The notes below the pieces were generated by a model that was given only the letters and a program-made list of their open reading frames with translations, made no database searches and was not told where the DNA came from. Source: an uncultured Pelagibacteraceae bacterium (GTDB lineage: Bacteria > Pseudomonadota > Alphaproteobacteria > Pelagibacterales > Pelagibacteraceae). Taken from it: a stretch of DNA of 36,783 nucleotides. The translations under genes and the position numbers were made by a program. How positions within the stretch are numbered: position 1 is the stretch's first letter; every line of letters starts with the position of its first letter. Shown piece after piece: positions 14,803 through 33,924 of this stretch. The stretch is taken from NCBI GenBank assembly GCA_902574705.1, contig CACGOM010000012.1, positions 1 to 36,783 on the forward strand. Direction: 5' to 3'.

Positions 14803-15551
14803 TAGATTACTTTAGCCTCATTTTTTAATTTTTGAACTAATTCTTCAACATTTGCGACTTTTATTCCCGCTTTTCTTTTTGGTGGCTCTTCAACTTTAAT
14901 TTGTTCTATTCTAGGTTTTGTATCAACACCTAAATCTGAAGCATTTATTTGTTCAATTGGTTTCTTTTTTGCTTTCATAATATTCGGTAGAGATGCATAT
15001 CTAGGTTCATTTAATCTAAGATCGCATGTAATAATTGCTGGAACATTAACCTCTATAGTTTCTAATCCTTCATCTACTTCTCTTGTAACTTCTAGAGTTT
15101 TATCTTTAACATCTATTTTTGATGCAAAAGTTGCTTGGGGCCAATTGAGTAAAGCCGCCAGCATTTGACCAGTTTGATTGCAATCATCGTCAATTGCTTG
15201 TTTTCCCATGAAAACTAGATCTGGTTTTTCTTTATCTACTATCTTTTGTAAAATTTTTGAAACAGCTAATGGTTCTATTAATCCATCAACCTTTACATGT
15301 ATTCCTCTATCAGCTCCTACGGCTAATGCTTTTCTAACAGTCTCTTGAGCTTTTTCTTCTCCAACAGTTATCGCAACAATCTCTTTTGCTTTTCCTGACT
15401 CTTTAATTTTTACAGCCTCTTCAACAGCATTATCATCTGGTGGATTTGTAGACATTTTAACATTATCAGTTACAACGCCAGTATTATCTTCTTTTACTCT
15501 TACTTGAACATTGTAATCAATTACTCTTTTTACTGCGACTAATATTTTCAT
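14802..15551 (-). CDS. etfB: Electron transfer flavoprotein beta subunit
   Basis: A 249-residue EtfB, the AMP-binding subunit of the heterodimer. The start [19 protein letters not shown], the [17 protein letters not shown] block (about 125-141) and the [11 protein letters not shown] recognition-loop segment (about 197-207) are characteristic. It begins on the last base of the dimethylglycine dehydrogenase stop and overlaps etfA by one base, so three proteins of one electron path are made from coupled frames. Confidence 0.96.
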
Positions 15552-17983
15552 TATGCTCTCAATAATTTATTTTCAGGATCGTATGGACTTTCATCTAAAA
15601 TTGTTGCATCGTGCATTTTCCCTAAAATGTCAATCTTCAATTTTTGCCCAGGATTTCCTAGTTCTGGTTTTACCATTCCTAAGGCAATAGATTTATTTAA
15701 TCTAAATCCAAAATCTCCTCCTGTTGCCCTACCAATGACTGATCCATTTTCATAAATTGGATTATTACCCAATACATCAGCATCTGTAGTATTATGAATT
15801 TCTAGTGTTACTAACTTGTTAGCAAATCCTTTTTCTCTCCATTTATTAAGTGCATCTAATCCAATGAAGCTTCCTTTATTTGGATGAATAAACCTATCAA
15901 GGCCACTTTCATAAGGTGAATATTCAATTGATAATTCTGTACCAACTAATTTGTAGGACTTTTCAACTCGTAAACTATTCATCGCTCTAATTCCATAGGG
16001 TTTTAAAGCTAAATCAGTACCTGCATCCATCAATTTATCAAAAATATGATTTTGATATTCAATTGGATGATGCAATTCCCATCCTAACTCTCCAACAAAG
16101 TTAACTCTCATAGCGTTTACTGGAGCTTGTCCAACATCTACCATTTTTGAACTTAACCATTTAAAATTTTCGTTAGAAAAATCATCTCTTGATACTCTTT
16201 GCATCAATTCTCTGGCTTTAGGACCTGAAACAACCAGAACTCCCATGCTATTTGTTAAATTTTCAAATATTACAGATCCATCTTTTGGCATCCATTTGTG
16301 TATCCAGTCATGATCTAATCTTTGAAAAGCACCAGCTGAAACTAAATAAAAGCTACTTTCAGACTCCCTCATAATTGTAAATTCTGAGTGAACTCCTCCT
16401 TTTGAATTCAAAGCATGACATAGGTTAATTCTTCCGTTATTTTTTGGCAATTTGTTTGCAACAAGTTTATCTAAAAATTCCTCTGCACCTGGGCCTTTAA
16501 TTCTACATTTTGCGAACGCAGACATGTCCAACAGACCAACATTTTCTTTTACATTTTTGCACTCTTTCTCTATTGCTTTAAACCAATTAGATCTTCTAAA
16601 AGACCAATCGTCTTCCTGCTTCATTCCATCTGTCGCAAAAAAATTTGGTCTCTCCCAACCAAATTTTTGACCAAATACTGCTCCAAGATTTTTCATTCTA
16701 TCGTAACAAGGTGCGGTTCTTAAAGGTCTTGCTGCTCCCCTTTCTTCATCAGGATAGTGAATTATAAATACATTTCTGTAAGCCTCTTCATTTTTTTCTT
16801 TTAAATATGATTTAGAACAATAATCACCGTATCTTCTTGGCTCAACACCAAGCATATCAATTGTTGGCTCTCCATCAACAATCCATTCGGCTAGCTGCCA
16901 ACCTGCACCACCTGCTGCTGTAATTCCAAAACTATGCCCTTCATTGATCCAGAAATTTTTTAATCCCCATGCAGGACCAACTATAGGATTTCCATCAGGA
17001 GTATAACATATCGCTCCATTATAAACTTTCTTAACTCCAACCTCTCCAAATGCTGGAACTCTGTGTATAGCCCCTTCTATATGTGGAGCAAGTCTATCTA
17101 AATCTTCTTGAAATAATTCATATTCAGAGTCTTTTGTAGGTCCATCAAGATAACAACAAGGCGCACCATCTTCATATGGTCCTAAAATTAATCCACCCGC
17201 TTCTTCTCTCATATACCATCTGCTATCACTATCTCTTAAAACTCCCATTTCAGGTAAACCGTCTTTTTTTCTTTTTTGAATTTCTGGATGTGGTTCTGTT
17301 ACAATATATTGGTGCTCAACTGGGATAACCGGAATATCAAGTCCAACCATTTTTCCTGTTTGTCTAGCAAAATTACCTGAGCAAGAAATTATATGTTCAC
17401 ACTCAATTGATCCCTTGTCTGTTTCAACAACCCAGCCATCTTTTGTTTGTTTCATACTAACAACTGTTGTGTTTCTGTAAATTTCTGCCCCTCTATTTCT
17501 TGCGCCTGTTGCTAAAGCTTGTGTTAAATCTGCGGGTTGAATATATCCGTCTTCTGGATGTTGAATTGCTCCAAGTAAGTCTGAAGTGTTACATAGAGGC
17601 CAAATCTCTTTTACTTGATCAGGAGTTAAAAATTTAACATCAACACCAATTGTTTGCGCAACACCCGCGTATTGATGATACTCATCCATTCTATCTTTTG
17701 TGCTTGCTAATCTAATATTTGAAACAACGCTAAAGCCAACATTTTTTCCAGTTTCTTCCTCTAAAGTCTTATATAAATTAACTGCGTATTTATGTAATTG
17801 TCCTACTGAATAGCTCATATTAAATAAAGGCAGTAATCCTGCAGCATGCCATGTTGAACCTGAAGTTAGTTCTTTTCTTTCAATAAGAACTACATCAGAC
17901 CAACCTTTCTTTGCTAAATGATAAAGTGCACTTACTCCAACTACTCCACCACCTACGACAACAACTTTTGCTTTTGATTTCAT
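15551..17983 (-). CDS. Dimethylglycine dehydrogenase-like flavoprotein with GcvT domain
   Basis: An 810-residue fusion of a DAO-type FAD oxidoreductase (about 1-370), an FAO_M linker (about 370-425) and a GcvT aminomethyltransferase half (about 430-805). The dinucleotide motif GGGVVG is at 11-16. H46 in STWHAAGL matches the histidine that carries covalent FAD in mammalian DMGDH. Enzymes of this build oxidise N,N-dimethylglycine (or sarcosine) and pass the methylene group to tetrahydrofolate, giving 5,10-methylene-THF. The gene leads an operon with etfB, etfA and ETF-QO, exactly the electron route known for DMGDH. Dimethylglycine would come from glycine betaine, the expected end product of the 22-32 kb region. 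Sarcosine dehydrogenase is the main alternative. Confidence 0.9.
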
Positions 17984-20070: not shown

Positions 20071-21501
20071 ATGTTAGATAAAAGAAAATTTTATATTAAT
20101 AGTAAATGGGTATCTCCTTCAAAACCAAATGACTTAGAAGTAATTAATCCCTCTAATGAAGATCCCTATGCTGTAATTTCACTTGGATCAAAAGAGGATA
20201 TTGATAAAGCGGTCAAAGCCGCAAAAACTGCTTTTGAGAGTTGGAAAAAAACATCAAAAGAAGAAAGGCTTAAACTATTAGAAAAGCTATTAGAAATTTA
20301 TAAAAAAAGATTTAATGAAATGGCAAAAGCTATTTCGGATGAAATGGGTGCACCAATGGATTGGGCTACAGAGGTGCAAACAGGATCAGGCCAAGCTCAT
20401 TTAGAAGATTTCATTTTAAGATTAAAAGAATTTAATTTCGATGAACATTTTGACTCTAAATCAAATAATCATATTTGTTATGAACCAATAGGTGTTTGTG
20501 GATTAATCACGCCATGGAACTGGCCTATTAATCAAATTGCATTAAAGGTTGTTCCTGCACTTGCAACTGGATGTACAATGATTTTAAAACCTTCAGAAAT
20601 TGCTCCTATATCAGGAATGCTATTTGCTGAAATGATCGATGAAGCTGGATTTCCTGCGGGTGTTTTTAATTTAATTAACGGAGATGGTGCTGGAGTTGGC
20701 ACTCATATTTCAGGTCATCCTAATATTGATATGGTTTCATTTACAGGATCAACTAGAGCAGGAAAATTAATTTCTAAAAATGCCGCTGAAACCATTAAAA
20801 GAGTTTGCTTAGAGCTTGGAGGAAAAGGTGGAAATATAGTTTTTGCAGACTCTTATCCAAACGCTGTAAGAGATGGAATTAGAAATGTGATGAGCAATTC
20901 TGGTCAGTCATGTGATGCACCAACTAGAATGCTTGTTGAGAAATCAATTTATCAAAGAGCTGTAGATGAAGCAGTGGATGAAGCAAATAAAATTCAAGTA
21001 GATGTAGGTTCAAAAAAAGGTGATCACATAGGTCCGGTTATTTCAAAAACTCAATACGATAAAATAATTAATTTAATTGAAAGCGGTATATCAGAAGGAG
21101 CAACTTTAGCAGCAGGAGGACCTGATAGACCAAATGGGTTAAATAATGGATATTTCATTAAACCAACAATCTTTACAGATGTTACAAATGATATGAGAAT
21201 TGCAAAAGAAGAAATCTTTGGACCTGTCTTATCAATTATTCCTTTCGAAAAAGAGGAGGAAGCAATTAAAATTGTAAATGATACTTCATACGGTTTAGGA
21301 AACTATTTACAAACAGAAGACAAAGAAAAAGCTCATAGGGTTGCAAAAGAACTTAGATCAGGCTGTGTTTATATTAACGGAAAAGGAGCTGATCCAGGAA
21401 CGCCATTTGGTGGATATAGACAATCAGGCAATGGACGTGAGGGTGGAGTTTGGGGACTAGAAGAATATTTAGAGGTAAAAACAGTAACCGGCTGGAAATA
21501 G
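20071..21501 (+). CDS. NAD(P)-dependent aldehyde dehydrogenase
   Basis: A 476-residue class 1/2 ALDH, oxidising an aldehyde to the acid. Catalytic residues are N150 (TPWNWP), K173, the general base E248 in LELGGKGG and the nucleophile C281 in NSGQSCDAP. Full length. It starts immediately after the hydroxyacid dehydrogenase stop, following a GGAGG-like stretch (acaggaggttta), so the pair is coupled. Given the choline and betaine genes nearby it could serve as betaine aldehyde or trimethylaminobutyraldehyde dehydrogenase, which would feed glycine betaine or gamma-butyrobetaine. That is inference from location; nothing in the sequence proves the substrate. Confidence 0.9.
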   Translation: MLDKRKFYINSKWVSPSKPNDLEVINPSNEDPYAVISLGSKEDIDKAVKAAKTAFESWKKTSKEERLKLLEKLLEIYKKRFNEMAKAISDEMGAPMDWATEVQTGSGQAHLEDFILRLKEFNFDEHFDSKSNNHICYEPIGVCGLITPWNWPINQIALKVVPALATGCTMILKPSEIAPISGMLFAEMIDEAGFPAGVFNLINGDGAGVGTHISGHPNIDMVSFTGSTRAGKLISKNAAETIKRVCLELGGKGGNIVFADSYPNAVRDGIRNVMSNSGQSCDAPTRMLVEKSIYQRAVDEAVDEANKIQVDVGSKKGDHIGPVISKTQYDKIINLIESGISEGATLAAGGPDRPNGLNNGYFIKPTIFTDVTNDMRIAKEEIFGPVLSIIPFEKEEEAIKIVNDTSYGLGNYLQTEDKEKAHRVAKELRSGCVYINGKGADPGTPFGGYRQSGNGREGGVWGLEEYLEVKTVTGWK

Positions 21502-21516
21502 CCTTTTAAAATCATA

Positions 21517-22149
21517 ATGCATTTAATACACAGAGGCATTGTAAATAAAAATTATAAAGAAAACTTATTAAATTCTTTCAAGGCATCATTTAAAAAGGGT
21601 TATGGAATTGAAACTGATATTCATGCCACAAAAGACGGTCATTTTGTATGCTTTCATGACTTTACTTTAAAAAGAATTCATAAAATCAACAAAAGTATAA
21701 AAAACTTAAGTTATACCGAAATACTCAACTTAACTAAAAAAAATCCAATACCATTGCTAAAAGATTTATTGAAACTTTCAAAAAATAAATTTGATTTATT
21801 TATAGAAATTAAACCACTTTTCTCAAATAAATTATTAAGAAAATTATTATATGAGACTAAAAAATATAAGAAATGTGTATTTATTTCTTTTAAAGAAAAA
21901 AATATTTATAGAATTATAAAAATAAAAAGAAAAACAAAAGTTGGACTTTCATATTCTCCATCAACTAGTATTAAAATAATAACAAAAAAATCTAAAAATA
22001 AAGATGTCAATTGTTTAATTTTAGATAAGTATTTTCTAAAAAGTAAAGAAATACACAAAATTAAAAAAGATAAATATTATTATACAATTAAAAATAAAAA
22101 GGATTTTAAGAAATATTCGAACAGTAATCTTATTTTTGAAAATTTATAA
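21517..22149 (+). CDS. Glycerophosphodiester phosphodiesterase family protein (short)
   Basis: A 210-residue GDPD-family TIM-barrel protein (PF03009), hydrolysing glycerophosphodiesters such as glycerophosphocholine to glycerol-3-phosphate and the alcohol. The catalytic set is present: H5-R6 (IHRG), E15-N16, E32 and D34 (IETDIHATKDG) and H47 in CFHD. The C-terminal half is very Lys-rich and shorter than in typical 240-250 residue members, yet keeps the FIEIKP strand. No signal peptide is seen, so it is probably cytosolic. It ends with a 6-base convergent overlap with the hydroxylase gene. Choline release would link it to the choline-dehydrogenase-like gene at 30109. Confidence 0.8.
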   Translation: MHLIHRGIVNKNYKENLLNSFKASFKKGYGIETDIHATKDGHFVCFHDFTLKRIHKINKSIKNLSYTEILNLTKKNPIPLLKDLLKLSKNKFDLFIEIKPLFSNKLLRKLLYETKKYKKCVFISFKEKNIYRIIKIKRKTKVGLSYSPSTSIKIITKKSKNKDVNCLILDKYFLKSKEIHKIKKDKYYYTIKNKKDFKKYSNSNLIFENL

Positions 22150-23280
22150 ATTTTTTAAATAATTAAGTCTTCCGATAATTTCATCTCTATCCATATAGTA
22201 ACCTTGTAGGTGTCTGTTACCTGAATTTGGATCAAACTCTGTTCTGCCGTGAAGTAATCTTCTATTATTAAAACAAAAAATATCTCCTGGCTCTAATCTA
22301 AAGTTAATTTGAAATTTACTATCATGTAATAAATTTCCAAATCTATGATGAGCTTTGTAAACTTTTTCCATTATATCAGGATGACAATCGAGTGTGTCTA
22401 ACGTTGCAATACTGTATCTGATATCATTATAATCTCCATCCTTTGTTAAGGATATCGCTGTACCATAAACGCTTCTTATCGCCTCTTGGGTATAATCTTT
22501 GTCTCTAAATTTAAGAGGTACATTCACAAGTATATCAAAAATTTCTTTTTCATTTTTTCTCAAATAATCTGCTACTGCAAATGCATCTACAGCTGAAGAG
22601 TCTCCTCCTTTAGCAGAATTAACTAAACAATGTAAAAACTGATATCCTGGAGGATTTTCAAACCAAGGTAAATCCATATGATTTCTTAAAGCGTGCGCTG
22701 TATATGCTGAATTATTTGGTTTTGGAATATTTATTACTTCAAAGGGTGTTTTAAAAAAAGTTTCTCTAGTATGGCTTATTTTATTTAGAACAGGCAAGGC
22801 GGACTTTTCCTCTGTTGGAGCGTTTTTAATTATTGCTATTCCCTTATGATGCAAAAGTTCTAACCATTTGATTAAACCATCATTAGTTTCCATTATTTCA
22901 TTACAGTTAATAGTTATGCTATCTAAATTGTTTTCTAACGAAGAGTCCCATAACTGATATGGAGAAATATATTTCTTACTATTCTTTATGGTGTAACAAT
23001 TCTTTCTTAACCAATCAGGATCATAATAACTTGTATGATTACCTTCACTCCACTCTATTTCTAATTTACCATCTTTGTTTATATTTAGATTTTTTGCACT
23101 TAATTTTTCAGAGACATTTAAAATGCTAAACATTCTATGTCTAGAGTCTGGATCATGAGCTGTGGGGCAATTATCTCTTAACCACATATAATTAAATTGA
23201 CTTTTAACCCCATCGTTCCATTCAACTTCTAAAGAAGTTCCATTCTTAGTAACATTTTTTATAAAAAAATTTTCTCTCAT
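22144..23280 (-). CDS. Gamma-butyrobetaine hydroxylase-like 2OG oxygenase (BBOX or TmpA)
   Basis: A 378-residue enzyme with an N-terminal BBOX-type zinc domain and a C-terminal TauD/CAS barrel. From ATG 23280, numbering nearly coincides with human BBOX1: iron ligands H201, D203 and H344, and R356 in a 2-oxoglutarate position. The trimethylammonium cage is aromatic throughout (F176, F180, Y193, Y362 for Y177, W181, Y194, Y366), so the substrate probably has a quaternary amine. N190 matches N191, but the segment holding carboxylate contact N292 has no Asn. Of four zinc ligands, C38 and H82 remain; the other two are T40 and D43. Candidates are gamma-butyrobetaine (giving carnitine) or trimethylaminoethylphosphonate (TmpA). 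The in-frame TTG at 23313 is a weaker start. Divergent from proX. Confidence 0.8.
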   Translation of the reverse strand: MRENFFIKNVTKNGTSLEVEWNDGVKSQFNYMWLRDNCPTAHDPDSRHRMFSILNVSEKLSAKNLNINKDGKLEIEWSEGNHTSYYDPDWLRKNCYTIKNSKKYISPYQLWDSSLENNLDSITINCNEIMETNDGLIKWLELLHHKGIAIIKNAPTEEKSALPVLNKISHTRETFFKTPFEVINIPKPNNSAYTAHALRNHMDLPWFENPPGYQFLHCLVNSAKGGDSSAVDAFAVADYLRKNEKEIFDILVNVPLKFRDKDYTQEAIRSVYGTAISLTKDGDYNDIRYSIATLDTLDCHPDIMEKVYKAHHRFGNLLHDSKFQINFRLEPGDIFCFNNRRLLHGRTEFDPNSGNRHLQGYYMDRDEIIGRLNYLKNL

Positions 23281-23352
23281 GTTCTTGGTCTTATTCTTAT
23301 TTAAACTTATCAAATTTTCAATTCAATTAATAGTTGTATATAAAACGTTAGC

Positions 23353-26559: not shown

Positions 26560-27345
26560 ATGGCTATTCAATCATTGAAAAATAAAAAAATAGTTATTTC
26601 TGCTGGTGCATCTGGTATTGGACTAGCAACAACTAAAATCTGCTTAGAAAGAGGGGCTACAGTTTTCGTTTCAGATATTAATGAAAAATTTACAAATAAA
26701 TTAAGAAAAAGTTCAAAAAATAAAAAACTTTTTATTTATAATTGTGATGCCTCAAATGAGAATGATGTAAATGACTTATTTGATAAAATTAAGAAAAAAA
26801 CATCTAAAATTGATGCTTTAATAAATAACGTTGGAATAGCAGGCCCAACTGGAACCATAGAAAAACTAAGCTCTTTCGATTGGGAAAATACTTTAAAAGT
26901 AAATGTTATCAGCCATTTTTATTTTACTAAAAATGCAATTCCACTTCTTAAAAAAAATAAAGGTGGAGCTATAATTAATCTTTCATCTGGTGCTGGTATA
27001 ATGGGATTCCCATTAAGATCTCCATACGCTGCAAGTAAATGGGCAATTATTGGAATTACTAAAACTTTAGCCATGGAACTTGGAAAGTTCAAAATTAGAG
27101 TTAATGCAATTTGCCCAGGTACAATTAAAGGTGATCGAATGGTTAGAGTAATTAGAGATAAAGCAAAATTTTTAAAAACTTCAAAAAAATCAGTTGAAAA
27201 AGAATTTATTTCCATGGCATCCATGAACAGTTGGATTTATGAGGACGACATTGGAAAAATGTGTAGCTTTTTAATCTCTAAGGACTCTGAAAGAATTTCA
27301 GGACAAGTTATTGGTGTTGACGGTAATGCTATAAGGTTAGACTAA
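26560..27345 (+). CDS. Short-chain dehydrogenase/reductase; candidate carnitine dehydrogenase
   Basis: A 261-residue classical SDR. The cofactor motif is GASGIG at 16-21, D39 at the end of beta-2 indicates NAD preference, the NNVG motif is at 89-92, and the catalytic triad is S143, Y156 and K160. The start lies 4 bp after proV, so the transporter mRNA also encodes this dehydrogenase and they presumably share a substrate. The two genes that follow the expected product, 3-dehydrocarnitine, are next door (CdhC and CdhB), while the usual carnitine dehydrogenase (CdhA, 3-hydroxyacyl-CoA dehydrogenase fold) is missing. I infer that this SDR oxidises carnitine at C3. D-carnitine dehydrogenase is, as I recall, an SDR, so stereochemistry is open. 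Confidence 0.85.
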   Translation: MAIQSLKNKKIVISAGASGIGLATTKICLERGATVFVSDINEKFTNKLRKSSKNKKLFIYNCDASNENDVNDLFDKIKKKTSKIDALINNVGIAGPTGTIEKLSSFDWENTLKVNVISHFYFTKNAIPLLKKNKGGAIINLSSGAGIMGFPLRSPYAASKWAIIGITKTLAMELGKFKIRVNAICPGTIKGDRMVRVIRDKAKFLKTSKKSVEKEFISMASMNSWIYEDDIGKMCSFLISKDSERISGQVIGVDGNAIRLD

Positions 27346-28229
27346 TAATGTTTGGTAAGTTTTAATTTTTCTCTAGTTTCACTTGGTGTCATTATAGAAA
27401 TTCCAAGATCGCTTACAATTCTAATTGCTTTCTCTACTAGTTGTGCATTCGTTGCTAATTTTCCTTTTTCTAAATATAAATTATCCTCAAGTCCTACTCT
27501 TGGATTTCCTCCCATAATTGCTGTTTGTGCAACAAATGGCATTTCATTTCTAGAAATTGCAAATCCAGACCATACAGCATTTTCTGGCATTATGTCTTTC
27601 ATTGCTTGCATTGCTAAAGGTGTTGCAGGAGCACCCCAAGGGATACCTAAACACATTTGAAACATTGGTGGATCATCTAGTAAACCTTCTTTATATAATT
27701 GTGCCCCGAACCACATATTACCTAAATCGAAAGCTTCTATTTCAGGTTTAACTTTAATTTCTTTTAATCTTTTTGCAGCTTTTCTTAAATCATTTGGAGT
27801 GTTAACTGTAATAACAGAGCTATCGCCAAAGTTCAGAGTTCCACAATCAAGAGTGCAAATCTCGGGTAAAAATTGTTCTGCATTAGCAATTCTCTCCATA
27901 ACATTTGCCATATCTGTCATTGGTCCAAATTCTAATGGATTTTCCCCCTGTCCAATATCTAAATCACCACCCATGCCTGTAGTTAAATTTAAAACTACAT
28001 CAGTTCCACTAGAACGAATTTTATCTACTACTTCTTTATACAATTCTAGACGTCTACTAGGAGTTCCATCATCTTCTCTAACGTGAATATGTGCAATTGC
28101 GGCACCTGCTTTTGCAGCTTCTATAGCAGCAGTTGCGATTTGATCAGGAGTTTTTGGTAAATCTGGATGTTTAGATGCTGTATCTCCAGATCCAGTAACA
28201 GCACATGAGATAAATACTTTATTGTTCAT
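27342..28229 (-). CDS. cdhC: 3-Dehydrocarnitine cleavage enzyme (BKACE family, CdhC-like)
   Basis: A 295-residue DUF849/BKACE enzyme, a zinc-dependent Claisen-type lyase. It moves the acyl part of a beta-keto acid onto CoA: 3-dehydrocarnitine plus acetyl-CoA gives betainyl-CoA plus acetoacetate. Zinc ligands H47 and H49 (AHIHVRED) and E248 (VGLEDN) are present. The blocks PEICTLDCGTLNFGD (122-136), CLGIPWGAPA (193-202) and NLTTGMGGDLDIG (81-93) match the CdhC branch as I remember it from Pseudomonas. It ends with a 4-base convergent overlap with the SDR and is divergent from the thioesterase gene across about 50 bp. Other BKACE substrates cannot be excluded, but the neighbouring CdhB-like thioesterase and betaine transporter support dehydrocarnitine. 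Confidence 0.88.
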   Translation of the reverse strand: MNNKVFISCAVTGSGDTASKHPDLPKTPDQIATAAIEAAKAGAAIAHIHVREDDGTPSRRLELYKEVVDKIRSSGTDVVLNLTTGMGGDLDIGQGENPLEFGPMTDMANVMERIANAEQFLPEICTLDCGTLNFGDSSVITVNTPNDLRKAAKRLKEIKVKPEIEAFDLGNMWFGAQLYKEGLLDDPPMFQMCLGIPWGAPATPLAMQAMKDIMPENAVWSGFAISRNEMPFVAQTAIMGGNPRVGLEDNLYLEKGKLATNAQLVEKAIRIVSDLGISIMTPSETREKLKLTKHY

Positions 28230-28278
28230 TTTAATTATTAGATTTATACTATTAAATTAAGTCTTGGGAAATAAAAAT

Positions 28279-28746
28279 ATGTCAGTGCATGTTACAAATG
28301 TAAAAATTAAATCTGAGTGGACAGATTATAATAAACATCTCAATATGGCCTATTATGTTTTAGTATTTGATCAGGCTTGGGAAATTTTACTTGAAAAATT
28401 TGGTATGGGTGAAACTTCAGCAAAAACTACTGGAATGAGCACTATGGTTGTTGAAACAAATACAACTTATGACAATGAAGTTGGTGAAGGTAAAGAAGTT
28501 GAGATAGTTTTAACTTATTTTGATCACGATAAGAAAAGATTACAATACAAATTAGAAATGATAGATAAAGATACAAATAAACTTTCTTCAACAATTGAAA
28601 TGCTATCATTACATGTTGATTTAAATAAAAGGAAAGTAGCTGAGTTTGATGAAGAAAGAACCAGCCTTATGGATGCATTTATTAGTGAAAATAAAGAAAA
28701 ATTTAAAAGTGATAATTTAAAATTTACAGGTAAACTAAAAAAATAA
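28279..28746 (+). CDS. cdhB: Betainyl-CoA thioesterase (CdhB-like, hotdog fold)
   Basis: A 155-residue single hotdog-fold thioesterase of the 4HBT family. The active-site motif EWTDYNKHLNMAYY (13-26) has the catalytic Asp D16. Betainyl-CoA thioesterase completes carnitine breakdown by releasing glycine betaine and CoA; in some bacteria it is fused to carnitine dehydrogenase, here it stands alone. ATG 28279 is preferred over TTG 28264 because it lies at a sensible distance from the GGGAA stretch and puts the motif at the normal position. It heads a tight operon with the TauD oxygenase (1-bp gap), the HD oxygenase and the GMC enzyme. Confidence 0.85.
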   Translation: MSVHVTNVKIKSEWTDYNKHLNMAYYVLVFDQAWEILLEKFGMGETSAKTTGMSTMVVETNTTYDNEVGEGKEVEIVLTYFDHDKKRLQYKLEMIDKDTNKLSSTIEMLSLHVDLNKRKVAEFDEERTSLMDAFISENKEKFKSDNLKFTGKLKK

Positions 28747-28747
28747 T

Positions 28748-29575
28748 ATGCAAGTAAATTTGTTATCTGGAGCATTGGGAGCTGAGGTAAAAGGGGTTGA
28801 TCTTAAAGATTCTTCTGACAAAAACTGGAAGGTAGTTAACAATCTGATGCTTGAACACAAAGCACTTTTCTTTAGAGATCAAGATATTACTTGTGAAGAA
28901 CAGATTAATTTAGCAAAAAAGTTTGGGCCACTTGAAAGACACGTTTATGTTAAAGGCTTAAAAGACCATCCAGAAATTTTAAGAATTGTAAAAGGAGCTG
29001 AAGAGAAACATCAATGGGGTGAAACTTGGCATACTGATGTTAGCTATAATCCAAAACCAACTAAAGTTATTATTTTAAGATCTAGAAAAATTCCTCCTGT
29101 TGGTGGAGATACTATGTTTTCAAATATGGAGATTGCATATGAAACTCTTGATAATGAAATTAAAAAGAAAATCGAAGGAAAGAAAGCAATTCATAGCTCT
29201 TTAGGTGCTGCAGCTTTTGTAGATAAATATACAGAGATGGAAGGTAATGGAAATTTAGATGAATACTCAAACGAGCATCCGATGGTAAGAATTCACCCTG
29301 AAACAAAGAAAAAAATTCTTTATGTGAATTCAATGTATACAAAAAAAATAATAGGTATGGATAAAAAAGAGAGCGATGAAATATTAAAAATTATTTTTGA
29401 GCATCAAGAAAGATTAGATTTTACATGTAGATTTAAATGGACAGAAAATGCTGTTGCTATTTGGGATAACAGAAGCACTCAACATCAGGGCTTAACAGAT
29501 TTTTTTCCTGGTAGAGGCCTTGGTCACGAAAGAGTAATGGATCGAATTGCAATTGAAGGAGATCATCCAAAGTAA
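28748..29575 (+). CDS. TauD/TfdA-family 2OG-Fe(II) dioxygenase, substrate unknown
   Basis: A 275-residue alpha-ketoglutarate oxygenase of the TauD family (PF02668). Iron ligands are H95 and D97 in WHTDVSY and H246 in STQHQGL; R262 and R266 (RVMDR) match the TauD arginines that bind 2-oxoglutarate and the substrate side. Taurine, 2,4-D, alkylsulfates and amino acids are known substrates of the family; none can be assigned. Its start follows the thioesterase stop by 1 bp, and the PhnZ-like gene follows its own stop with no gap. That pairing resembles the hydroxylase-plus-HD-oxygenase pairs (PhnY/PhnZ, TmpA/TmpB), so C-alpha hydroxylation for the next enzyme is the favoured role. Confidence 0.88.
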   Translation: MQVNLLSGALGAEVKGVDLKDSSDKNWKVVNNLMLEHKALFFRDQDITCEEQINLAKKFGPLERHVYVKGLKDHPEILRIVKGAEEKHQWGETWHTDVSYNPKPTKVIILRSRKIPPVGGDTMFSNMEIAYETLDNEIKKKIEGKKAIHSSLGAAAFVDKYTEMEGNGNLDEYSNEHPMVRIHPETKKKILYVNSMYTKKIIGMDKKESDEILKIIFEHQERLDFTCRFKWTENAVAIWDNRSTQHQGLTDFFPGRGLGHERVMDRIAIEGDHPK

Positions 29576-30112
29576 ATGGATATCATTGAGAAAATCATAA
29601 GTAACTTTAAAAATAATAAATCACTTTATATCGGAGAAAATGTAACAATTGCTGAACATATGATTCAGTCAGCAATGATGGCTGAAAAATCAAAAAGCAA
29701 AGACAATTTGGTTTGTTCATGTTTATTGCACGATTATGGTCATTTCATATTAGATGATCCTGATGAATTGGTTAGAAACAATCAAGATGGCAAACACGAA
29801 GATATTGGTTATGAGTATTTAAAAAGATTTTTTAAGAAAGAGGTAGTTGAACCTATTAAACATCACGTTATAGCTAAAAGATATCTTGCTAGAGATAAAA
29901 AATATTACAATCGATTATCTGAAGCATCTGTAGTAAGTCTTAAACTCCAAGGAGGCCTATTAAACAGCAAGGATGCAAAGGTATTTGAAAAAGAAGAATT
30001 CTTCAAAGATGCAATAAAACTTAGAAAGTTTGATGAAGCTGCAAAAAAAATAGGCGTCAAAATAAAAGATATCATTCAGTATAAAGATTTATTAAAAGCA
30101 TCTCTAAAATGA
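29576..30112 (+). CDS. HD-domain mixed-valent diiron oxygenase, PhnZ/TmpB-like
   Basis: A 178-residue single HD-domain protein with all metal ligands of the oxygenase PhnZ: H28, H52-D53, H74, H97 and D153, plus Y18 and E21 in YIGENV, the gating Tyr/Glu pair. Other matching blocks are HHVIAKRYL (K101 at the phosphonate-contact position), LSEAS, LQGG and KLRKFDE. PhnZ splits 1-hydroxy-2-aminoethylphosphonate to glycine and phosphate. TmpB makes glycine betaine and phosphate from the trimethylated analogue. The start directly follows the TauD stop, and its TGA overlaps the GMC start by 4 bases. Placement among glycine-betaine-forming genes favours a TmpB-like reaction. A nucleotide phosphohydrolase role is unlikely because the oxygenase-specific residues are retained. 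Confidence 0.85.
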   Translation: MDIIEKIISNFKNNKSLYIGENVTIAEHMIQSAMMAEKSKSKDNLVCSCLLHDYGHFILDDPDELVRNNQDGKHEDIGYEYLKRFFKKEVVEPIKHHVIAKRYLARDKKYYNRLSEASVVSLKLQGGLLNSKDAKVFEKEEFFKDAIKLRKFDEAAKKIGVKIKDIIQYKDLLKASLK

Positions 30113-31689
30113 ATTATGATTATTTAATAATTGGTGCAGGATCAGCAGGATGCGTACTTGCAAATAGACTAACAGAAAATGGTCAAAATAATGTAGCTAT
30201 ATTTGAAGCTGGAAAGCCTAGTGATATTTGGAAAGTTAAAATGCCCCTTGCAATTTTGTACACAATGCATGATCCAAAGTATAATTACAAATATTACTCA
30301 GAACCAGAGCCTCATTTACATAATAGAAGATTATTTTGTCCAAGAGGTAAAATGATTGGAGGATGTTCTGCTCACAATGGAATGGTATTTGTAAGAGGAA
30401 ATCCAAACGATTATAAGAGATGGGCATCTTTTGGATTAGAAAATTGGTCTTATGAAAAAGTACTTCCTTATTTTAAAAAAATTGAAACATGGTCTGAAGG
30501 AGAAAATGAGTACAGAGGTGGAAGTGGTATATTGCCAGTAAACCAATCTAAAAATAAAAATCCCTTATTTAAAGCATTTGTCGAGTCAGCTGGTGAAGCT
30601 GGCTATAAAATAAATGATGATATGAATGGTAAAGAACAAGAAGGTTTTGGAATGTACGATGTCACTATTCATAAAGGTGAAAGAGCAAGTGTTTCTAAAT
30701 ATTATTTAAATCCTGCAAAAAAAAGAAAAAACCTCAAAGTATTTACAGAGTCTTTTGTAGAAAAAATTATTTTTGAAGGAAAGAAAGCTATTGGTATTGA
30801 GGTCAAAATTAAAAATAAAATTGAAAAAATATATGCAAATAAAGAAGTAATTTTAAGTGGTGGTGCTATAAACTCTCCTCAATTGCTTATGCTGTCTGGT
30901 ATTGGTCCAAGTCAACACCTAAAAGACAAAGGAATTAATGTGGTTCACAATTTAGAGGGAGTTGGAAAAAATCTACAAGATCACTTAGAAACCTACGTTC
31001 AACAAGAGTGTAAAACAAAAGATACTTTATATTCTTATGTTAATAAAATTAATATGATTAGAATAGGTATTCAATGGTTTCTAAATAGAAGTGGTCCTTG
31101 CTCTACCTCTTTTTTAGAAGCAGGTGGCTTTTGTAAATCATCTTCTGAAAGAGAATACCCAAATATTCAATTTCATTTTTTTCCTGCTTTTGTAATTGAC
31201 CACGGATTAGTTGATCCAGATAGACATGGTTATCAATTACATGCGAGTCCAAACCATCCAAAAAGTAGAGGTCATATAACTTTAAATAGCTCTAATCCTT
31301 ATGATTATCCAAAAATTCAATTTAATTATCTTGAACATGAAGATGATTTAAAACAAACAATTGAAAGTATTCATGTAGCAAGAAAAATTTTGGGACAAAA
31401 CTCTTTAAAACCATTTGCAGGAAAAGAGATTGGACCAGGAGAACATGCTCAAACTAAAGAAGTATTTGAAGAATACATTCGTTCTAAAGCTGAGACTGCT
31501 TATCACCCATCTTGTACTTTAAAAATGGGGGTAGATAATATGGCTGTAGTTGACCAAAAACTAAAAGTTCATGGTATAGAAAATTTAAGAGTAGTTGATG
31601 CTTCTGTTATGCCTGAAATTACAAGCGGAAATTTAAATGCTCCAACGCTCATGATTGCTGAAAGAGCATCAGAATTTATTTTAAACTAA
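30109..31689 (+). CDS. GMC-family choline dehydrogenase-like flavoprotein
   Basis: A 526-residue GMC oxidoreductase. The FAD motif GAGSAG is at about 8-13, GMC signature 1 around GKMIGGCSAHNG (about 79-90), and signature 2 around SGGAINSPQLLMLSGIG. The catalytic pair H466 (AYHPSC) and N510 (SGNLNAP) corresponds to that of choline dehydrogenase and choline oxidase. BetA oxidises choline to betaine aldehyde and on to glycine betaine, feeding electrons to the membrane. It ends an operon with cdhB-, tauD- and phnZ-like genes (4-base overlap with the latter). Many marine GMC enzymes act on other alcohols, so choline is likely but not proven. Confidence 0.85.
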   Translation: MNYDYLIIGAGSAGCVLANRLTENGQNNVAIFEAGKPSDIWKVKMPLAILYTMHDPKYNYKYYSEPEPHLHNRRLFCPRGKMIGGCSAHNGMVFVRGNPNDYKRWASFGLENWSYEKVLPYFKKIETWSEGENEYRGGSGILPVNQSKNKNPLFKAFVESAGEAGYKINDDMNGKEQEGFGMYDVTIHKGERASVSKYYLNPAKKRKNLKVFTESFVEKIIFEGKKAIGIEVKIKNKIEKIYANKEVILSGGAINSPQLLMLSGIGPSQHLKDKGINVVHNLEGVGKNLQDHLETYVQQECKTKDTLYSYVNKINMIRIGIQWFLNRSGPCSTSFLEAGGFCKSSSEREYPNIQFHFFPAFVIDHGLVDPDRHGYQLHASPNHPKSRGHITLNSSNPYDYPKIQFNYLEHEDDLKQTIESIHVARKILGQNSLKPFAGKEIGPGEHAQTKEVFEEYIRSKAETAYHPSCTLKMGVDNMAVVDQKLKVHGIENLRVVDASVMPEITSGNLNAPTLMIAERASEFILN

Positions 31690-31691
31690 AA

Positions 31692-32678
31692 TTATTTGTT
31701 ACGATAAACTGAAATTAAACAGATGATTTCAAACATTATAGCCGATGCCACCATTGCAGTAATTTGATTTGGATTATCTTTTGTGGGCATTAAACATGCA
31801 ACATCACCACCAATAACATTTTTACCTTTTAGACATTGAATAAGTTTTCTTGCTTCATCCATATTGAAACCTCTATAAGCTGACTCAATGTTTGCAACAC
31901 CTGGTGCAACAGATGGATCTAAACAGTCTAAATCAAAAGTTACATAAATAGGATTATCTCCTAGTCTATCTAAAATCATTTTTGCACATTTGTCATGACC
32001 CCACTCTCTATACTCATCCATAGTAATTACTTGATAGCCATTATCATAACTTGCTTGTAACCAATCTAAAGTTCTTGGGTTTCCTCTAATTCCAATTTGT
32101 GTACTTGTATGTGGATCAACGTTTCCTTGTTTTACCAAATATGATGCCCAATGCGCGGCAGATTTTTTTGCACCAAGAAAGTGATCTAATTTTTCAAAAC
32201 AATCTGTGTGTGCATCAAAATGAAGAAAAGTTATTTTTTTTCCTTTTGTAAGTTTTGAATTTTTTTTAGCTAAGCTTTGAACAATTCCTCCTGTTATAGA
32301 ATGATCTCCACCAATAGATACCACTGGTTTTTCTGCTTGTTCTATTTGATCATAAAAAGCTGAGATCCTTTCAATACACTTTTCATTATTGTTTGCCTCT
32401 GGAAAAGGAACATCTCCTAAATCATGAATTTTATTTTCTTTCCAAGGATCAATTTTATAATCAAAATGAGATCTTTTTAACATTGCTGAAATATTTCTGA
32501 CTGCTCTTGGTCCTAGATGTTGATCTCTCTCTGTTGTTCCATTTCCTGTACTATGAGGAACACCTACTAAAGCTATATCACAGTTTTTTGGATCAGGATC
32601 ATTTTTGCATCTAAATAAAGTTGGTATACCCCACCAATAGAGGGTCTCCATCATTATCTTATCTTCTTCAGAAAACAT
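31692..32678 (-). CDS. Ureohydrolase (agmatinase/arginase family) with atypical active-site loop
   Basis: A 328-residue binuclear metal hydrolase of the arginase/agmatinase superfamily (PF00491), releasing urea from a guanidino substrate. All six metal ligands are present: H126 (GGDHS), D155, H157 and D159 (DAHTD), and D249 and D251 (TFDLDCLDP). After APG, where agmatinases normally read (T)GTPEPGG, this protein has VANIESAYRG (261-270). That loop contributes to substrate selection, so agmatine is doubtful; guanidinobutyrate, guanidine or another guanidino compound are options. A second start at M9/M10 is possible. It lies 45 bp downstream of the DmdA-like gene on the same strand and its stop is 2 bp from the convergent GMC stop. 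Confidence 0.85.
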   Translation of the reverse strand: MFSEEDKIMMETLYWWGIPTLFRCKNDPDPKNCDIALVGVPHSTGNGTTERDQHLGPRAVRNISAMLKRSHFDYKIDPWKENKIHDLGDVPFPEANNNEKCIERISAFYDQIEQAEKPVVSIGGDHSITGGIVQSLAKKNSKLTKGKKITFLHFDAHTDCFEKLDHFLGAKKSAAHWASYLVKQGNVDPHTSTQIGIRGNPRTLDWLQASYDNGYQVITMDEYREWGHDKCAKMILDRLGDNPIYVTFDLDCLDPSVAPGVANIESAYRGFNMDEARKLIQCLKGKNVIGGDVACLMPTKDNPNQITAMVASAIMFEIICLISVYRNK

Positions 32679-32723: not shown

Positions 32724-33863
32724 CTAAGAACTGGCTATTTTTTTCTTTGGATCAAAAAATGGTTTCTCAACTACTCTGCAATTTACTTTTTTTTTATTAA
32801 TAATTGTTGTTAATTTGGTATCAAGGTTTGAATGTCGAATATCAATCATTGCTAAAGCGATGTTTCTTTTTAATCTTGGTGAGTAAACTGCAGAAGTTAC
32901 TTTTCCAATCTTAAGATCATTATTTAAGATGGGCCAAAAAATTGTATTTGGTCCTGATAATGGTTCGCATTCAATTTCTAAACCAACCTGTATTCTTTTA
33001 ATTCCCTCTTTTTTAATTTTTTTAAGAGCTTCTTTGCCAATAAAATTAACATCACTCTCTAAATTAACTAATCTATCGAGTCCTAATTCAAACGGATTAG
33101 TATTTATATCCGCATCTGCATGATAAGATAACATTCCTCCCTCTATTCTTCTAATTGATGAAGTATGTCCAGGTTGAAGACCATGTTCCTTACCAGCTTC
33201 CATAATTGTTTCATATAATTCATTGCCTTTAGATCCATCTCTTAAATAAATTTCATAACCTAGTTCACTTGACCATCCCGTTCTAGATAAAATTAATGGA
33301 ATATCATTTAGTTTATATTCCTTTAACCAGTAGTATTTTAAATTCTTAATATTTTCTCCAAATAATTTTTCCATTATTTTTCCAGAAGTAGGACCTTGTA
33401 ATTGTAAAGGCGATACATCAGGTTCTGAAATTTTTACATTTAATCCTGAGTTTACCGCAACTCCTTGTGCCCATAATAAAATATCACTATCAGCCAATGA
33501 TAACCAAAAATGATTTTCGGCTAATCTTAAAAGAACAGGATCATTCAATATGCCTCCATCATTATTTACAATCAATACATACTTACATTGACCGATCGAT
33601 AATTTTGAAAGATCTCTTGGAGTTAAAAGTTGAATAAATTTAAAAGCATCTGGTCCTGTAATCTCTACTTGTCTCTCTACCGCAACATCACAAAGAATAG
33701 ATTTTTCGATTAAATTCCAAAAGTTTTGTTCTGGACTACCAAAGTCTCGGGGTATGTACATATGATTATATACTGAGAATCCGGTAGCACCCCACTTTAC
33801 GGTTGATTCAAAATAAGGAGATTTTCTAATTTGAGTACCAAATCCAAAATTTTTATTAGACAT
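32724..33863 (-). CDS. DmdA-like GcvT-fold protein (putative THF-dependent demethylase)
   Basis: A 379-residue protein of the GcvT/DmdA family (PF01571 plus PF08669 domains), which moves a methyl or methylene group to tetrahydrofolate. It shares the DmdA framework: SVYNHMYIPRDFG near the N-terminus, DVAVERQVEITG, LTPRDLSK, and the NDPVLLRL and ADSDILLWA blocks. From ATG 33863, W197 and Y206 fall at the numbering of Pelagibacter DmdA residues that, from memory, line the DMSP site. The loop between them reads SSELG instead of the SKQGG typical of DmdA, and GHTSSIRRIEGG replaces the usual GCPN.IERIES. I therefore call a paralogue with probably another methylated substrate. ATG 33878 is a less likely start. 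Confidence 0.8.
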   Translation of the reverse strand: MSNKNFGFGTQIRKSPYFESTVKWGATGFSVYNHMYIPRDFGSPEQNFWNLIEKSILCDVAVERQVEITGPDAFKFIQLLTPRDLSKLSIGQCKYVLIVNNDGGILNDPVLLRLAENHFWLSLADSDILLWAQGVAVNSGLNVKISEPDVSPLQLQGPTSGKIMEKLFGENIKNLKYYWLKEYKLNDIPLILSRTGWSSELGYEIYLRDGSKGNELYETIMEAGKEHGLQPGHTSSIRRIEGGMLSYHADADINTNPFELGLDRLVNLESDVNFIGKEALKKIKKEGIKRIQVGLEIECEPLSGPNTIFWPILNNDLKIGKVTSAVYSPRLKRNIALAMIDIRHSNLDTKLTTIINKKKVNCRVVEKPFFDPKKKIASS

Positions 33864-33924
33864 GAAAATCTTTAACACGCACGAAAATAATTACAAAGTT
33901 AATTTTTTTTGATATACAGCCATA

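Follow-up and report, generated by a model that had tools for sequence, protein, structure and literature searches.

A TmpB-like HD oxygenase in a SAR11 glycine-betaine island and its candidate hydroxylases

The locus studied here raises the question of what an HD-domain oxygenase acts on when its gene directly follows that of a TauD-type oxygenase, and which hydroxylase supplies its substrate. The window, by which we mean the whole stretch of 36,783 nucleotides that was analysed, is one entire contig of an uncultured Pelagibacteraceae draft genome (86% complete, 40 contigs). A first-pass annotation, made from the sequence, had described a TauD oxygenase directly coupled to a PhnZ/TmpB-type HD diiron oxygenase inside a glycine-betaine-forming operon. 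The genes concerned are as follows.

15551..17983, minus strand: two-domain FAD/GcvT protein, by its domains of the dimethylglycine/sarcosine dehydrogenase kind; below all NCBIfam cut-offs
20071..21501, plus strand: aldehyde dehydrogenase; best NCBIfam match betaine-aldehyde dehydrogenase, 428.1 of 668.6 bits
21517..22149, plus strand: glycerophosphodiester phosphodiesterase-like protein, named after the Arctic SAR11 island gene; no NCBIfam match
22144..23313, minus strand: gamma-butyrobetaine dioxygenase-like protein (BBOX); best NCBIfam match TIGR02409, 320.6 of 414.75 bits
23373..26555, plus strand: ProX-ProW-ProV-like quaternary amine ABC uptake system, three genes named from their ORF sequences
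26560..27345, plus strand: short-chain dehydrogenase of the island (domain and profile searches)
27342..28229, minus strand: BKACE (domain and profile searches), with a presumptive substrate
28264..28746, plus strand: 4HBT thioesterase, similar to carnitine 3-dehydrogenase fusions in their C-terminal part; likely a betainyl-CoA thioesterase
28748..29575, plus strand: TauD-type Fe(II)/2OG oxygenase (ORF calls, domain and profile searches, residue alignment, fold)
29576..30112, plus strand: HD-domain diiron oxygenase of the TmpB/PhnZ kind (domain, sequence, residues, tree, fold)
30109..31689, plus strand: GMC oxidoreductase of the choline dehydrogenase kind (NCBIfam profiles; 4-base overlap with HD)

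The ORF coordinates bear out the tight packing described for the thioesterase, TauD, HD and GMC genes, which all lie on the plus strand with gaps of 1, 0 and −4 bases, HD starting on the base after the TauD stop (29575 to 29576). The GMC protein scores 747.2 bits against the subfamily profile PRK02106, above the cut-off of 605, and 681.2 bits against the betA equivalog, below the cut-off of 732.1.

The residues listed by the first-pass annotation as defining the oxygenase site of the HD protein (H28, H52-D53, H74, H97, D153, Y18, E21 and K101) are all invariant in an alignment of 11 sequences that includes TmpB (6npa) and PhnZ (4mlm), and so are H56, S118 and Q125. We take H56, K101, S118 and Q125 to be phosphonate contacts in TmpB and PhnZ. 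Across 20 HD sequences from the window and other loci, several of them partial, every signature residue is invariant except Y18. H28, H52-D53, H74, H97 and D153 match the metal motif, and Y18 and E21 the YxxE loop, as both are defined in the available text of PMC8177086; the protein also carries the five histidines (H28, H52, H56, H74 and H97) called for in PMC11203657, whose available text gives no positions. In sequence searches TmpB was the top solved structure (E 1.6e-33), with PhnZ at E 1.3e-26. An AlphaFold model (pLDDT 92.9) matched TmpB 6npa best (Z 26.1) and PhnZ at Z 25.3; myo-inositol oxygenase scored Z 11.1 and every other listed entry 9.4 or less, in a list where a family's being missing carries no weight as evidence. 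The HD tree, a quick one with SH-aLRT support only, covered 46 of 66 SAR11 loci, 47 of 50 others, the window, TmpB and PhnZ. It places 43 SAR11 HDs in one clade (support 99, starred), grouped with TmpB (91, unstarred), with long-branch warnings for PhnZ and L130. Values of dN/dS ranged from 0.02 to 0.27 across 11 pairs and were below 0.1 in nine of them; together with the sequence matches, they speak against a chance reading frame.

Sequence, tree and fold agree in placing the HD protein with the TmpB/PhnZ oxygenases, as first proposed. The Pfam result, in which the general HD domain alone was matched, would also suit an ordinary phosphohydrolase standing beside TauD by accident. This reading keeps a negligible probability and is in effect ruled out by motif, tree and fold: the oxygenase-type YxxE loop and the five histidines are present, and the protein sits with TmpB and PhnZ, far above the hydrolases listed.

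The choice of substrate was less direct. The HD protein falls under the curated cut-offs of TIGR03276 (Phn-HD; 167.4 of 214.6 bits) and NF049941 (TmpB; 160.4 of 300 bits). The TmpB cut-off does not discriminate here, because a SAR11 HD adjoining true TmpA (locus L058; true TmpA being defined by a profile score above 400 bits) misses it too, with 153.8 of 300. It is improbable that HD instead cleaves a non-phosphonate hydroxylated quaternary amine delivered by TauD, for example at a C-C bond in the manner of myo-inositol oxygenase. Such a substrate would suit the carnitine and betaine setting, the missed NCBIfam phosphonate cut-offs and the lack of visible phosphonate transport genes in the window and of PF12974 in the draft genome. 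However, all four presumed contacts common to TmpB and PhnZ are kept, HDs of the same clade adjoin true TmpA, and the missed TmpB cut-off is uninformative, as L058 illustrates. The first-pass annotation had left the choice between a quaternary-amine phosphonate and a sulfonate or carboxylate analogue; the phosphonate is favoured, whereas the analogues find no support here. We conclude with fair confidence that the HD enzyme is a TmpB-like oxygenase making glycine betaine.

The neighbourhood fits the making and using of glycine betaine, and the island domains and NCBIfam matches uphold this part of the earlier description. The cassette is flanked by the BBOX, ProXWV-like, short-chain dehydrogenase, BKACE, thioesterase, betaine-aldehyde-dehydrogenase-like and FAD/GcvT genes, and some relatives carry a gene best matching L-carnitine dehydrogenase (L036, 328 of 414 bits). 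In four loci (L054, L055, L087 and L088) two genes directly precede TauD: one of 346-348 aa, which resembles homocysteine methyltransferase in L055, where it was typed, and one sharing 35-38% identity with the FAD/GcvT protein of the window. Their products point to betaine.

Gene content around the cassette varies. Upstream of the thioesterase (L034-L037 and L114), some genomes have a CitE/RipC-like lyase (typed in L035) separating it from BKACE, and others have a gene of the class II aldolase type, identified in L086; modularity thus extends to the island's carnitine end. Just 3' of GMC, an agmatinase-family gene (window 31692-32678) occurs in some genomes and is replaced elsewhere by a 369-aa protein (L033:671-1780, L039:11616-12725), which has no NCBIfam match in L033 and which we take to resemble an amidinotransferase. 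A GcvT-fold protein at window positions 32724-33878 reaches 387.7 bits against the DMSP demethylase profile, just below the cut-off of 410. An SMR exporter like quaternary-ammonium exporters lies against TauD on the opposite strand in L086 (9084-9416), and genes of like size occupy this place in several other loci.

As noted at first pass, no phosphonate transporter or regulator was seen in the window, and the phosphonate-binding protein family PF12974 (E 1e-5) was not found in the window's draft genome. Of 23 HD-clade genomes searched for it, only three (G290, G252 and G006) exceed its cut-off, and this rarity speaks against a role in phosphorus starvation. The ProXWV-like system could be the route by which a quaternary phosphonate is taken up. 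The Arctic SAR11 island has an ABC system at the same place, according to the available text of PMC12421898.

The TauD-type neighbour was then compared with E. coli TauD (34% identity, fold Z 35.1). The alignment gives Fe ligands H95, D97 and H246 and the 2OG arginine R262; R266 (the anion arginine) and H65 are kept, and W90/G91 replace E. coli D94/N95. We take the equivalents of R266 and H65 to hold the sulfonate in E. coli TauD and D94/N95 to be its amine contacts, and we assume the ligand roles likewise. This combination is consistent with a substrate bearing a negative charge and an amine other than a free primary amine; the TauD residues do not tell phosphonate from sulfonate or sulfate. 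The protein falls under the NCBIfam TauD cut-off (PRK09553; 215.7 of 313 bits). PF02668 is its sole Pfam match at E ≤0.001, with no GBBH-like N-terminal domain, whereas the window's BBOX paralogue combines PF02668 (TauD) with such an extra domain, a pair that is presumably the architecture of TmpA. A TauD partner had been announced as a new pairing for an HD oxygenase. It does belong to a different subfamily from TmpA, but within the same Pfam family, since the TmpA-kind BBOX is PF02668 too. Outside the bacterial family, the best TauD homologue among 385 genomes of the class was 46% identical. In ten TauD neighbourhoods from outside the family no match to the window's HD or GMC was seen, a result of little weight, since in two of them (L209 and L217) not even TauD passed the ORF filter.

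The distribution of both genes was surveyed in 297 genomes of the same family. The HD clade (at least 52% identity) is present in 31, a second HD clade (41% identical to the window's) in 6, and TauD orthologues (at least 67% identity) in 41; one HD gene (G006:C2:127424-127921) has an in-frame TAA and is possibly decayed. TauD and HD occur together in 24 genomes, HD without TauD in 7, TauD without HD in 17 and neither in 249. This co-occurrence, in 24 of the 31 HD genomes, exceeds chance (Fisher p 1.9e-18, uncorrected for ancestry). Among the 17 TauD-only genomes, 15 have a direct TauD-GMC arrangement, one (G178) has no adjoining GMC and one (G126) is truncated where its contig stops; four of the 17 carry another, 41%-identical HD elsewhere.

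Gene order was typed at 85 SAR11 loci, a set in which some genomes were drawn from two collections: TauD-HD-GMC at 46, TauD-GMC at 17 (including L087 and L088, whose genomes have HD elsewhere), HD-GMC at 8 (including L048 and L050, whose contigs start inside TauD), HD only at 12 (six being the second HD clade) and TauD only at 2. In L056, TauD does not adjoin HD. The order itself is conserved: HD and GMC overlap by 4 bases at 54/54 adjacent loci, and the TauD-HD gap is 0-9 bases at 45/45 loci, with the same double sampling in both counts. The most constant neighbour of both TauD and HD is GMC. Direct coupling of TauD to HD, as first proposed, is not borne out, given the 17 TauD-GMC loci without HD, the HD-GMC loci without TauD and the two genomes that pair HD with true TmpA. 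A strict TauD-HD couple is only partly supported. On the TauD tree, again a quick one with SH-aLRT support only (47 of 66 rows, duplicates and fragments left out), presence of HD at the locus changes five times, at least four of them forced by well-supported branches. HD-GMC without TauD forms one clade of six rows nested among TauD-HD-GMC types, most likely because TauD was lost there and HD kept. Four genomes (G069, G224, G274 and G123) have HD-GMC without TauD (E 1e-30) and without TmpA over the cut-off; G057 has both an HD close to a TmpA-like gene and a TauD-GMC apart from it.

This mosaic would suit two betaine-forming modules working in parallel, an arrangement we consider quite possible, at appreciably less than an even chance. 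TauD would turn taurine betaine or choline-O-sulfate into betaine aldehyde, to be oxidised by GMC or by the island's aldehyde dehydrogenase, and HD would separately convert OH-TMAEP, obtained from TmpA, a TmpA-like enzyme or uptake, into glycine betaine; the genes would be clustered through a common product, not a common substrate. Besides the loci having one gene without the other and the gains or losses of HD on the TauD tree, the TauD residues agree with it. Of 12 TauD contact positions that were mapped, two of them gapped in every SAR11 row, none distinguished the 41 rows with HD from the 18 without; the column differing most is residue 27. The presumed sulfonate-holding R266 and H65 are kept and the presumed amine contacts changed. 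The constant TauD-HD spacing, by contrast, argues against separate modules.

The evidence on the hydroxylase itself bears on both possibilities. True TmpA was found in 6 of the 297 genomes, all six HD-positive (p 8e-7, uncorrected for ancestry). In two of them (G042 and G082) it adjoins an HD of the same clade (L058 and L059) and scores 531.7 and 541.9 bits; on the HD tree, a six-row set including these two HDs is sister (91) to 37 HDs of TauD/GMC loci. The other four (G073, G116, G092 and G122; 55-76% complete) have TmpA elsewhere, about 16 kb (G073) and 19 kb (G122) from HD on the same contig, and their sole HD found is one beside TauD and GMC, although in G092 and G116 the contigs hold just the end of TauD. 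In these four genomes the HD at the TauD/GMC locus would therefore have to use the product of TmpA. Their having both TauD and true TmpA also favours parallel modules.

Contact residues separate true TmpA from its relatives. With the phosphonate contacts taken from the available text of PMC9296572, the pattern NNR is kept in 5/5 SAR11 TmpA rows, against D?R in 18/18 rows of a TmpA-like paralogue and N?A in 36/36 BBOX rows; SAR11 BBOX proteins are accordingly without the TmpA phosphonate arginine. The generic TmpA-like paralogue (about 324-352 bits) occurs in 104 of 297 genomes, and six further genomes have true TmpA. It accompanies HD in 21 of 31 genomes against 83 of 266 without HD (p 9e-5); TmpA or the paralogue is present in 27 of 31 HD genomes (p 1.8e-9) and the paralogue in 29 of 41 TauD genomes (p 5.5e-7), none of these values being corrected for ancestry. 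As the hydroxylase of HD the paralogue is nevertheless disfavoured, both phosphonate asparagines being missing in the 18 rows examined. True TmpA was not found in the window's genome (86% complete), where the best scores were 340.7 and 272.3 bits against the cut-off of 400; the 340.7-bit protein (L170) is of the kind without both asparagine contacts.

With the paralogue set aside for want of both asparagines, 25 of the 31 HD genomes are left with no evident TmpA; TauD occurs in 20 of them, which favours TauD as the local hydroxylase. Weighing against it are the 17 TauD genomes that lack this HD, the contact positions that do not change with HD, the four genomes whose HD-GMC is accompanied by neither TauD nor TmpA, and the co-occurrence of the paralogue with HD. 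Two parallel modules would leave HD without a known hydroxylase in the same 25 genomes, the window's included. Nor did the literature searched, in its available text, give support for taurine betaine or choline-O-sulfate as TauD substrates. The relatives considered were the best 80 of 531. Beyond SAR11, we examined the neighbours of 50 HD loci: by profile, 18 have an adjoining BBOX/TmpA-like gene and 32 neither BBOX nor TauD, three of the latter (L128, L154 and L158) showing a BBOX-like gene nearby. The SAR11 TauD profile gave no match beside HD in these 50 loci.

Taken together, our preferred explanation, tentative and just short of evenly balanced, is that of a TmpB-like HD in a betaine island, receiving a hydroxylated substrate from TmpA or TauD, with GMC leading to the same product. 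TauD-HD-GMC would be a cassette of a SAR11 island funnelling quaternary amines into glycine betaine. HD would use a mixed-valent diiron centre to break the C-P bond of (R)-1-hydroxy-2-(trimethylammonio)ethylphosphonate by oxidation, giving glycine betaine and phosphate. A 2OG oxygenase would add the hydroxyl: true TmpA where a genome has it, as few do, and elsewhere, as in the window's genome, most likely the TauD-type neighbour. GMC would oxidise choline or betaine aldehyde to glycine betaine. TauD would also have a role independent of HD, because TauD-GMC stands alone in many genomes. Gene order, family membership, active-site residues, distribution and selection are direct observations; the substrates, the passage of a product from TauD to HD and the role of GMC are inferred. 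We rate a relay from TauD to HD and two parallel betaine-forming modules as roughly equal in likelihood. The further proposal that TauD displaced TmpA in SAR11 as the hydroxylase feeding a TmpB-like HD, on a route serving betaine carbon and nitrogen rather than phosphorus starvation, is one we hold with more doubt than belief. The analysis suggests that SAR11 cells with the cassette can also use a choline-like phosphonate as a source of betaine, with release of phosphate.

The cassette is worth an assay for its bearing on marine phnZ counts. In the available text of PMC9381506, Pelagibacterales make up 45% of marine phnZ sequences and phnZ is read as 2-aminoethylphosphonate (AEP) catabolism; that of PMC8316502 divides phnZ into subclades and describes the AEP-specific form as rare. 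Of the SAR11 HD genes examined, one clade lies on the TmpB side, mostly in the betaine island, and a second near PhnX (one locus typed), so that counting them as AEP genes may mislead. If TauD did displace TmpA, there would be a further 2OG/HD phosphonate route, to which many marine SAR11 phnZ genes read as AEP degradation would belong. If TMAEP is the substrate, SAR11 would connect an osmolyte-like phosphonate with glycine betaine, a compound that can stand in for glycine in SAR11 according to the available text of PMC12478193, and the phosphate released would be a testable source of regenerated phosphorus. In the typed second-clade locus (L063:7831-10382), HD lies near a phosphonoacetaldehyde hydrolase gene (TIGR01422, 266.5 bits over the cut-off of 220) and near arsenate-reductase-like and aquaporin-like genes. 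A PhnD-type binding protein is encoded about 4 kb from the second-clade HD in five of its six genomes (L063-L068); the sixth, G166, has only about 1 kb of contig beyond HD.

Compared with known systems, the window's TauD shares with E. coli TauD the fold, the Fe and 2OG ligands and the anion arginine and histidine, and differs in sequence (34% identity), in its replaced presumed amine contacts and in its score below the NCBIfam cut-off. TmpA and TmpB of Leisingera caerulea act by way of OH-TMAEP, which is converted to glycine betaine and phosphate. The window resembles this pair in the HD fold, metal ligands, YxxE loop and likely product, and in two same-family genomes an HD of this clade adjoins true TmpA; the window differs in that the adjoining 2OG enzyme is TauD-like, without the GBBH-like domain, and is followed after HD by a choline dehydrogenase-like gene. 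PhnY and PhnZ convert 2-aminoethylphosphonate to glycine, and a Gimesia/Prochlorococcus pair acts on methylphosphonate. The succession of a 2OG hydroxylase and an HD diiron oxygenase is common to all of these, whereas the window's HD is closer to TmpB than to PhnZ. Unlike in Prochlorococcus MIT9301, as presented in the available text of PMC6581173, no phosphonate transporter or Pho genes were seen beside the window's HD. A TauD-HD gene pair was not found in the available text of the literature searched. The island as such is already published: in the available text of PMC12421898 it is reported from half of 16 Arctic SAR11 genomes, its authors think it acquired by transfer, and the HD gene is not named. 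The same text lists 17 genes without an HD for a region of 17-20 genes, so an HD may occur in some, and it proposes no phosphonate role, the word phosphonate being absent. Those genes include HADH, ALDH, GPDP, BBOX(1), ABC, ADH, BKACE, thioesterase, BBOX(2), CHDH and DMT; to the extent that PMC12421898 is available, genes and order largely match the window, which is without the LGL, CDH, aldolase and SMR genes. By order, the Arctic BBOX(2)-CHDH corresponds to the window's TauD-GMC, a correspondence for which L086, with its own aldolase and SMR genes, offers a further comparison.
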